In this document: positions 5,436 to 9,206 of the stretch, piece by piece
Position numbering within the stretch: position 1 is the stretch's first letter
Layout of the letters: each line of letters opens with the position of its first letter
Assembly (NCBI GenBank): GCA_903928915.1
Contig: CAIYSL010000110.1
Location: 1 to 53,698 of the forward strand
Direction: 5' to 3'
DNA: 53,698 bases
From: an uncultured Syntrophobacterales bacterium
GTDB taxonomy: Bacteria; Desulfobacterota; Syntrophia; Syntrophales; UBA5619
Notes under the pieces: model-generated
Told to the model about the DNA's origin: nothing
Seen by the model: only the letters and a program-made list of their open reading frames with translations
Databases searched by the model: none
Made by a program: the position numbers and the translations under genes

Positions 5436-8400
5436 TCAGCCCCCCTGTCCGAATTCTTCCCGGATCCTGCCGGCGATCACCTCCACCGGCTCGCCGAGCA
5501 GGACCCCGAGCGGAATCTCCTCCAGGTACCGGTCCTCCCAGCGCAGGTTGTACTCCTGGATGAGGTCGCGGATACCGGTCACCCGCTCTCCCAGGATCTC
5601 CTTCCGTACCTCCGCGGTGATCGTTTCATTGAAGGTCACGTGAATCAGGAGAAGATGGCGGACGGCATCGTTCTCCCCCTGAAGCGGCAGAATGACGATC
5701 GGGGCGCCGTCCGTCTTTCCCCGTCCCACGTACATCTGCCCCGAAGCGACGATCCCCTTTTTCGTCCCCATCAGGCGCAGCGACGTCTCGGCCCGGGAGG
5801 TCATCCCCGTGGAAACGCCGCCCCGGCCCACGATGGCGATCGTGGAATCCTCACCCGGTTTCCCCTCGCCGTCCAGACGATCGACTGCGTAGAGGGTATA
5901 CCCGTTGACGGCCGACAGGGCCCGCTGGATCAGACCGACGGCCGGCACGTTGGTGCCGAGGGTGGACTTCGCCGACAATTCCAGCTCCCCGAGAAGGTCG
6001 AAGATGATCCCCGTGAGCGGCGTCTCTCGCCGGCTGGTCCCCACGGTGACCGTCTTGGCCTGATGCCGGATGGCATCGATCGGCCGCGAGAGCTCGTCCA
6101 CGGCGCGACCGAGCGTCGCATCCAGGAGGTCGACGGGCGAGGTCTGCTCTCCCGCCGCGGGGAAGTCGCGCCGAAAGTCGTGCAGCGGGAGTCTTCCGGC
6201 GGCATATTTCAGCAGGACAACCAGGTCGGCGATCGTCCGGGTGCCGGTGAGCGAGAAGGCGCCGCTGCCCCGCAGCCGGTTGAAGCGAACCGCGAAATCG
6301 TTCACCAGACGGCGCAGCCGCTGATCGGCGACGGTCTCGTAGACGGTGGCGTTTTGCCTGACCTGCTCCACCATCAGAAGGTTCAGGCGGCCCTTGAACG
6401 CGCGCAGAAACACCGCCTCCTCATCGATGCTGCAGGCGGCGTAATACCCGAACAGGTGGCCCGCGACGGTGTTCAAGATCACTGGAAGCGGCATCGGCGC
6501 CTTCGGGATGGGGATCACCGCGTCGGCGATCGCGTCGAAGCGCTGCTCCCCTTCGTCGGCAAACACTACCACGCTCGACCCGTGCGCCTTGAATATCGCC
6601 GTATCCTTGACCACGTCCCCGGTCACCGCCTCGGGATTTCCCGCGGCGCAGACGATGATCAGCGGTTCGGCGGAGAGATCGATATGTTTCTTGTTCTCGA
6701 TGATGTCCGAAGAGATCGTCTTGTAGCAGAGTTCGCTCAGCTTGATCCGGATTTCCTCGGAAGCCGCGCGGTTCGGGCCGCTCCCCACGACCGCCCAGTA
6801 CCGCTTCGCTTTCGCCAGGTTCTCCGCGGCACGGCGGATCTCCTCCTTGCGCGCCAGGACTCGCTCCATCAGTGCCGGCGTCTGCTCGAGCCGGCGGAGT
6901 TCCATCGCGATCCGCTCGCCCGACAGCGTCCCCAGGATCTGGGCCAGGTGCAGGGCGAGGATGCGGCCGGCCACGATCTGGGAGTAGAAGGCCTTGGTCG
7001 AGGCGACGGCCATCTCGATGTCCCTGCCGTCGGAGGTGTACAGGACCCCGTCGGCCTTCGCCGTGATATCGGACTGCCGCCGGTTGACGATGGCGATCAC
7101 GCCGGCGCCCCGCTCCGCAGCCATCGCCACGGCGCGGTTCGTGTCGGTCGTCGTCCCCGACTGGGTGATCGGGATGATCAGGGTGTCGCTGAGGTCGCGC
7201 TCCAGCCCGAATCCGCTCAGTTCGGAGGCGACGGTGGCCTCTACGCGCACCCCGCTTCCCCGGAGGCGGCTTTCCAGGGCGTCGGCCACGGCGCTGCCGG
7301 CCACGGCTGCCGTTCCGTGACCGATGACGACGATCCGCCGGATCGCCCCGCCGGTCAGGGCCTCCCGGATCCTCCCGGGGACGACGTCCTCCCCGAGGTT
7401 GAACACAACCGTTTCTCCGTTCCTGCCCCGCTTGATGCGGTACTTGCCACGCAGGGTCTTGCGGACCGAGAGGACCGATTCGGTGATCTCCTTGAGGAAG
7501 AAATGGGGGTAGTCGCCCCGGTTGATGTCCCGGGTGGTCATCTCGGCCTTCTTCACCGCTTCCGCCCCGATGCCGAGCGGGGTCCCGTCGTAGAAGCACC
7601 CCGCGATCCCGGCCACGCCGCCGGGTGCGTCCTGGGAGAGGACGCAGATTTGTCCGATTGCCTCCGGCCGGTCCGGCCGCGACGGTTTCTCGCCGTCCAT
7701 CTTCACGAACAGCGAGGTCTCTTCCACCAGGCCGTACAGTTCGGAGGAAAAGAGGTAGCGGTCGGGGGCGATCCCGATGTAGATGGACTGGCCGCTTCCC
7801 CTGAGGGCGAGGAACACCTTCCCCGGTTCCGCATTGCTCACCATGGCGATCGCGTGGGCGCCTTCGAACTCGCCGACGGCGCGCCGGAACGACTCGGTCA
7901 GGTCGTAGCCGGCCAGGAGGTGCTTCTCCACCAGCAGGGGGATGATCTTCGTATCCGTCGTCACCTCCGGCGAGATCGTCTCCCTCCCGACGGCATGCGC
8001 ATCCAGGAGGCTCTGGTAGTTGTCGATATCTCCGTTCAGAACGACGTGGATGGACCAGGGCCCCGTTCCGTAGGCGGGATAGTGCTTCTCCCGGCCGTCG
8101 CCGCCCGGTTCGGCGCTGCGGGTATAATTGCTGAGCGGGTGGCAGTTCTCCTCCGTGATCGACCCCACCGACGCCCAGCGGGTATGGGCAAAGGCGGTTT
8201 CGCCGGCGACGGGCAGACGGGCGAAGGCATGGAACAGGCGATCCCCCGCGATATGGGCCCGCAGCTCCCGGACGTTCCGCCCCAGCTCGCCGATGATCGA
8301 GGCGGTTTTGTAGGTGAAGGTAATCGACCGGCTGCCGGCCCGGTTCGTCCCCGGCGCCGCTTCCGGCGCGCCGGTGATCGATCCGTCCACCAGATCCCCG

Positions 8401-9206
8401 GCCTTCGTGCGCCGGCGCAGTTCTCCGTCGAGCCCGCGCCGCTCCAGGTCGGCGAGGAGTCCACCGACCGACCCGGGATCGGCCGGGACGAAGGAGATCT
8501 CGACCCCCGCCGAATCCCGCCCCCGGACCTCCAGGCGGTCCAGGCAGTTGAGCAGGGTGTTGAGCTTGCGGTATTTGGGAAGGGCTTCCGGGGCTACCTC
8601 GGCGACCCCGCGGGCCCCGGCCAGTTGAACGATCCGCGCGACGTTCCCCAGGATATCCTGCTCCAGGGACCAGATGAGATCGCGGATGAGGACGAGGCCG
8701 CGGTTGACGGCCTCGATCGCCGTCGTGGGAAAGCAGCCGGCCTGCTCCTCCAGAAGGGCCTCCTCAGCCGCGAGAAAGGCGCGCATCCCTGCGGCGCAAC
8801 CGGCCAGGCGCTGAGCGGCCCGCTCGGCGAAGAACAGCTCCCGGAAGGCATCCTCCCCTTTCAGGCGCTGGAGTTCCCCCTCCAGCTCCGTCAGGGCAGA
8901 TTCCCCCCCCAGGTACTGAGCGGCGGTTATCCTGCCGGCGAGAAGCGCGGCCAGGTCACACCCGGAGGCCCGCTCGAACAGCAGCGGCAGGTCCGCCCCC
9001 GGCGCGTCCGGCGCCCCCTTCCGGCGGAGGACCAGAAGGCCCGCCAGCCCGCAGCAGAGGGTCGCCGGCAGGAGCGGAAAGAGGATCAGCGCCGGCGCCG
9101 CTACGCGGTGCGGGTCGCGTCCGACGACGACCTTCCAGCAGCGCAGCGCGGATACGATCTTTCGGCCAACCCCCTTCAACCCCGCCACCTCAGCAGACAC
9201 CTGCAC
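5436..9206 (-). CDS. Expanded GlmS-like glutaminase/double-SIS protein, 1256 aa
   Basis: Related to glucosamine-6-phosphate synthase but about twice its length. Landmarks in order are a putative Ntn nucleophile in CCGLAG (Cys51/52), RGRDSAG (228-234), HTRWASVG (341-348), NGDIDNY (391-397) and TTDTKII (416-422) for the glutaminase. A first SIS domain holds [10 protein letters not shown] (about 608-760), and a second lies at about 800-920. AKTVTV (1050-1055) resembles the GlmS C-terminal tail. Extra material sits before Cys51 (including a hydrophobic stretch, about 36-60), between Cys52 and RGRDSAG (about 175 residues), between SIS2 and the tail (about 130), and after the tail (about 200). No start codon adjoins the cysteine, so a propeptide would have to be removed or the glutaminase is inactive. 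GTG at 9206 is used; a TTG nine codons later is possible. Making glucosamine-6-phosphate is plausible but not certain. Confidence 0.8.

Follow-up and report, generated by a model that had tools for sequence, protein, structure and literature searches.

Glucosamine-6-phosphate synthase (GlmS) catalyses the first step towards the sugars of peptidoglycan and lipopolysaccharide, and to our knowledge nearly all bacteria have its ordinary form. A contig from an uncultured Syntrophobacterales bacterium (CAIYSL010000110.1, assembly GCA_903928915.1), analysed here as a window of 53,698 nucleotides whose positions (1 to 53,698) serve as coordinates throughout, raises the question of what a GlmS-like protein of double length is for, and how it could work with 51 residues ahead of its putative nucleophile, Cys52. 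We propose, with a probability of about 0.83, that this lineage relies on the protein as its glucosamine-6-phosphate synthase, and that it is synthesised with a propeptide, a leader which the protein probably removes itself.

The open reading frame lies on the minus strand (5436..9206), running from a GTG start at 9206 to a stop at 5436, and encodes 1256 residues. Its matches to the NCBIfam profiles PRK00331 (E=4.8e-76) and TIGR01135 (E=5.4e-68), together with the structural match and the alignment to E. coli GlmS (taken from NC_000913), bear out the GlmS-like identity given in the initial annotation, and the order and spacing of landmarks described there are also correct. The leader (residues 1-51; 9054..9206) is followed by the Cys52 codon (9051..9053), the equivalent of E. 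coli GlmS Cys1; the preceding codon is TGC, so that no start codon adjoins the cysteine, as had been noted. Insertion 1 (8571..9023; 151 residues between E. coli GlmS positions 10 and 11) separates Cys52 by 176 residues from the arginine of the RGRDSAG motif, which holds the Arg26 region (8505..8525). Insertion 2 (8295..8480), about 55 residues in two pieces within the glutaminase domain, falls between RGRDSAG and HTRW (positions 40-48), and a further 23 residues follow position 90; the HTRWAS and NGD motifs of the glutaminase pocket span 8028..8186. The isomerase region, with SIS1 and SIS2, occupies 6417..7526, where Lys822, Glu825 and His841 correspond to E. coli Lys485, Glu488 and His504. 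Insertion 3 (6081..6416; 112 residues between positions 594 and 595) makes the distance from the end of SIS2 to AKTVTV that much longer than in E. coli GlmS, and the C-tail HQAKTVTVG with Lys1051, the equivalent of Lys603 (6039..6080), is followed by a C-terminal domain of about 200 residues (5439..6038). The earlier description of four extra segments thus holds as to the large extra segments, and the count becomes a leader, three large segments and one smaller insertion of about 55 residues. The mature part is 28% identical to E. coli GlmS over 600 positions, and the whole departs from the TIGR01135-type layout of about 610 residues with the cysteine straight after the start methionine. This layout is not a chance one, since the profile E-values are strong and more than 100 relatives share it; the independence of those relatives also rules out an assembly error or frameshift as its cause.

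The features by which the GlmS superfamily is recognised are all present: the N-terminal nucleophile (Ntn) glutaminase pocket, the isomerase residues, the C-tail lysine and the overall fold. In an alignment of 65 sequences, with 26 positions tabulated against E. coli GlmS, 22 of the 26 are identical to the E. coli residue in every sequence. They include the glutaminase equivalents Cys1, Arg26, His71, Arg73, Trp74, His86, Asn98, Gly99 and Asp123, the isomerase equivalents Thr302, Gln348, Ser349, Thr352, Val399, Ser401, Lys485, Glu488 and His504, and the C-tail equivalents Ala602 and Lys603; each mapped catalytic residue of the two domains is conserved or conservatively replaced. The predicted structure, which covers the protein without its leader (mean predicted local distance difference test score, pLDDT, 81.8), superposes on GlmS from Cys52 through the tail lysine. 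Against human GFAT-1 (6r4g) it aligns over 610 residues with Z 39.6. All 239 residues of the E. coli glutaminase domain on its own (1xff) align with it at 2.2 A (Z 28.2), beginning at the cysteine, so that Cys52 sits at the beginning of a complete glutaminase fold. The C-tail has low pLDDT and is probably mobile. The initial annotation named as a refutation a predicted structure whose glutaminase motifs do not assemble; in the model they do. Its suggestion that the glutaminase is inactive or fed by ammonia finds little support, because the glutaminase equivalents listed above are invariant and the fold is complete.

Evidence that the leader is a propeptide comes from comparing 89 relatives. 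In 82 of them a coding leader stands at fixed spacing directly before the invariant cysteine, with no in-frame stop across the last 30 codons and with codon variability highest at the third position (0.66, vs 0.49 and 0.37 at the other two). The leaders share an ungapped motif (Gly -23 in 79/82, Phe -9 in 75/82, Pro -8 in 82/82), and in the CCG of the window it is the second cysteine that is invariant. The remaining seven are leaderless, with ATG or GTG immediately ahead of the cysteine and in-frame stops upstream; one of these, L032, has a clear Shine-Dalgarno-like GGAAGGAA. On a tree of the core protein the seven occupy three separate positions, and well-supported branches enforce two or more of these. 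As the same cysteine is residue 2 in some relatives and lies behind a leader in others, the simplest reading is that the leader is cut off and the cysteine becomes the first residue: Cys52 most likely acts as N-terminal nucleophile once the leader, a propeptide, is gone, as the earlier suggestion of propeptide removal had it. Two side observations concern the leaderless relatives. In L032, positions 4450-4520 hold short degenerate repeats (CAGTCATCAGTC.., ACTTACGACTTACG..), in frame and inside insertion 1; and L107-L111 (family f73) form a divergent leaderless branch on a long stem, with proteins of 1137-1170 residues and the same extra segments.

What removes the leader is less clear-cut. Its removal is probable on comparative grounds; self-cleavage is probable by analogy with PurF, and cleavage by a separate peptidase is possible but unlikely. 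That alternative draws on the variable residue -1 (Cys, Asn, Phe, Tyr, Pro and others among the leaders) and on the fact that known PurF leaders are shorter than this one; against it, no candidate peptidase gene was identified adjoining the long glmS gene, and related class II enzymes cleave themselves, PurF precursors being known to remove a short leader autocatalytically (PMC7056826). In the same organism, the open frame of PurF (L005, G000:C55) also has residues before its cysteine (..EECGVFAVYG), which fits an ordinary class II propeptide there. Literature searches on GlmS propeptides and on Syntrophales glmS found nothing relevant, and in them a propeptide, known in PurF, appears without precedent for GlmS: we found no report of a GlmS that depends on losing an N-terminal piece.

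The distribution of the long form indicates that it has replaced ordinary GlmS. Within Desulfobacterota we surveyed 127 Syntrophales-type genomes (the class, comprising one order) and a draw of 394 genomes from the phylum. The long form is found in 110 of the 127, nearly always as a single copy, and ordinary GlmS scores above its cut-off in none. Among the 394 genomes, 55 carry the long form and 318 ordinary GlmS, and the two occur together in a single genome (G281, locus L119), vs 44 expected if they were independent. The check for a second, ordinary glmS proposed in the initial annotation found none in the organism's own genome: a GlmS profile search returned this gene, PurF and weaker matches only, and an SIS profile search returned the long GlmS, a KdsD-type SIS+CBS protein (L001) and one short weak match (L003), putatively GmhA-like by its length. 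The genome has no nagB either, and the long GlmS is the only candidate found in it for the first step of the pathway.

The later steps are present, since genes for GlmM and of GlmU type were found in the genome. In the window, glmM, which encodes the pathway's next enzyme, lies at 38024..39376 on the plus strand (569.3 bits vs a cut-off of 447.6), beside a gene for a beta-helix protein resembling the GlmU C-terminal half (36735..37985, plus strand). In 40 of 83 loci (including L019) an orthologue of the latter is the gene immediately upstream of long GlmS, and in one comparison a relative's upstream protein is 54% identical to the window's copy; glmM is present at 23 loci, and L122 has the order beta-helix, glmM, long GlmS. 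These neighbours tie the long GlmS to UDP-N-acetylglucosamine synthesis. The beta-helix protein (about 416 residues) resembles only the C-terminal half of GlmU and has a conserved extra C-terminal half of its own, with no Pfam match in the two relatives scanned; the uridyltransferase half is encoded on another contig, and GlmU looks split in this lineage.

The clustering and the replacement bear on a further reading, that the protein is a specialised paralogue making another amino sugar while glucosamine-6-phosphate comes from elsewhere. Its 28% identity to GlmS, its extra domains and its changes at the phosphate site (Ser303 to Ala, Ser347 to Thr) would fit such a role, but ordinary GlmS has been replaced almost perfectly by a gene that is single-copy in nearly all genomes, no other GlmS or NagB is found in the genome, and the GlmM and GlmU-like genes cluster with it; we regard this as quite improbable. 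Weaker still is the reading that the leader is kept, either with an idle glutaminase and free ammonia as substrate (which may be plentiful in the habitat of these organisms) or as the membrane anchor once suspected from the hydrophobic stretch before the cysteine: the conservation of the leader, with its universal Pro -8, looks like that of a lasting role, but the glutaminase pocket including the cysteine is invariant, seven relatives encode Met-Cys directly, and the stretch is continuous with the glutaminase's first beta strand; only 2 of 82 leaders reach 1.6, the threshold commonly applied to hydropathy over 19 residues (the leader encoded in the window scores 1.42).

Several observations weigh against the proposed identity of the long protein as a propeptide-bearing GlmS. 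Its TIGR01135 score of 229.9 bits is below the 418.05 cut-off, and four tabulated positions differ from E. coli GlmS: T76 is Ser in all sequences and H77 is Val in most, while S303 is Ala in all and S347 is Thr in 50 and Ser in 15. Neither form was detected in 17 of the 127 genomes of the order, which may reflect assembly gaps or a third solution (G008, G018, G031, G035, G042, G048, G049, G052, G074, G084, G086-G088, G095, G097, G115 and G125). The Fisher test for mutual exclusion (p ~3e-47; 1e-36 leaving out the window's own class) treats genomes as independent, their relatedness uncorrected; the branch towards ordinary GlmS in the tree is saturated; and the C-terminal domain resembles PAS and GAF folds weakly (best Foldseek E 8e-3, VIA Z no higher than 9.2). 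The long form spans many families, however (f1, f49, f51, f53, f66, f67, f73, f79, f103 and others), and the exclusion is therefore not one event recounted within one family. A working glucosamine-6-phosphate synthase remains the most likely identity because the sites are kept, the fold matches, ordinary GlmS is replaced, and GlmM and GlmU-type genes are present and often adjacent; catalysis itself is inferred from this evidence. By the curated TIGR01135 cut-off the protein lies outside that equivalog, and it appears to be a new variant, a divergent and enlarged GlmS. Since the standard models find it GlmS-like yet score it under their cut-offs, pathway annotation would miss it.

Insertions 1 and 3 are helical in the predicted structure, and insertion 3, which lies between SIS2 and the tail, forms a bundle of helices. 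The profile search of the inserts that had been called for gave no convincing match in Pfam or among PDB sequences for insertion 1, for insertion 3 (best sequence match E=0.014) or for the C-terminal domain; the latter has no match among plasmids, and the long GlmS no relative in viral contigs. The C-terminal 200 residues form a predicted alpha/beta domain whose structural matches are mostly chains with PAS and GAF domains (Z 6.5-8.2), the best being residues 175-358 of 7jsr (Z 9.2, 5.0 A, 162 residues, 11% identity). The ACT-like and PAS-type modules in the N-terminal segment of that enzyme have been proposed to act as sensors of metabolism (PMC8175468). A sensor role for the C-terminal domain is a suggestion only, since a widespread arrangement can by itself give Z values in this low range.

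We envisage that the protein would be synthesised as a precursor whose 51 leading residues are cut away, probably autocatalytically in the manner of PurF, leaving Cys52 at the N-terminus as nucleophile. Its glutaminase domain, of class II (Ntn), would then take ammonia from glutamine for transfer to fructose-6-phosphate by the SIS isomerase domain. The two helical insertions may have a structural role or help the protein to oligomerise, and the PAS/GAF-like domain may bind a small ligand that adjusts the activity. Taken further, leader removal and the PAS-like domain might together form a maturation and sensing switch, a metabolite-controlled GlmS zymogen that replaced ordinary GlmS across the class; we consider this doubtful, although if true it would set the share of carbon and glutamine given to cell-wall precursors. 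A class of syntrophic anaerobes appears to run the GlmS step with a double-size enzyme, and its natural homologues with and without the leader make the processing question directly testable.

The CTP synthase gene pyrG (3769..5367, minus strand; TIGR00337, 815.7 bits) lies directly downstream; of the 62 loci with sequence there, 43 have it on the same strand no more than 400 bases beyond the long GlmS gene. A small Fis-type DNA-binding protein is encoded directly upstream (9316-9654, minus strand) and is kept nearby in most relatives. The window contains no Rfam element, and hence no glmS ribozyme.

Among known systems, the closest likeness is to GlmS/GFAT (TIGR01135; 1jxa, 6r4g), with which the long form shares the Ntn glutaminase, two SIS domains, the C-tail lysine, the catalytic positions and the overall fold; it differs in its double length, 28% identity, leader before the cysteine, two helical insertions and extra C-terminal domain. 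The large glutamate dehydrogenase of M. smegmatis, mL-GDH180 (7jsr), which gives the best structural match to the C-terminal domain, is a nitrogen enzyme to which PAS-type and ACT-like modules have likewise been added (PMC8175468), but its catalytic core is unrelated and the match is modest at 11% identity. The propeptide-bearing class II amidotransferases, namely PurF of the B. subtilis type and of plants, have residues before the cysteine as the long GlmS does. GltB also belongs to this propeptide-bearing group; the long protein differs from both PurF and GltB in being a GlmS, with a leader of about 45-50 residues that carries a motif of its own.
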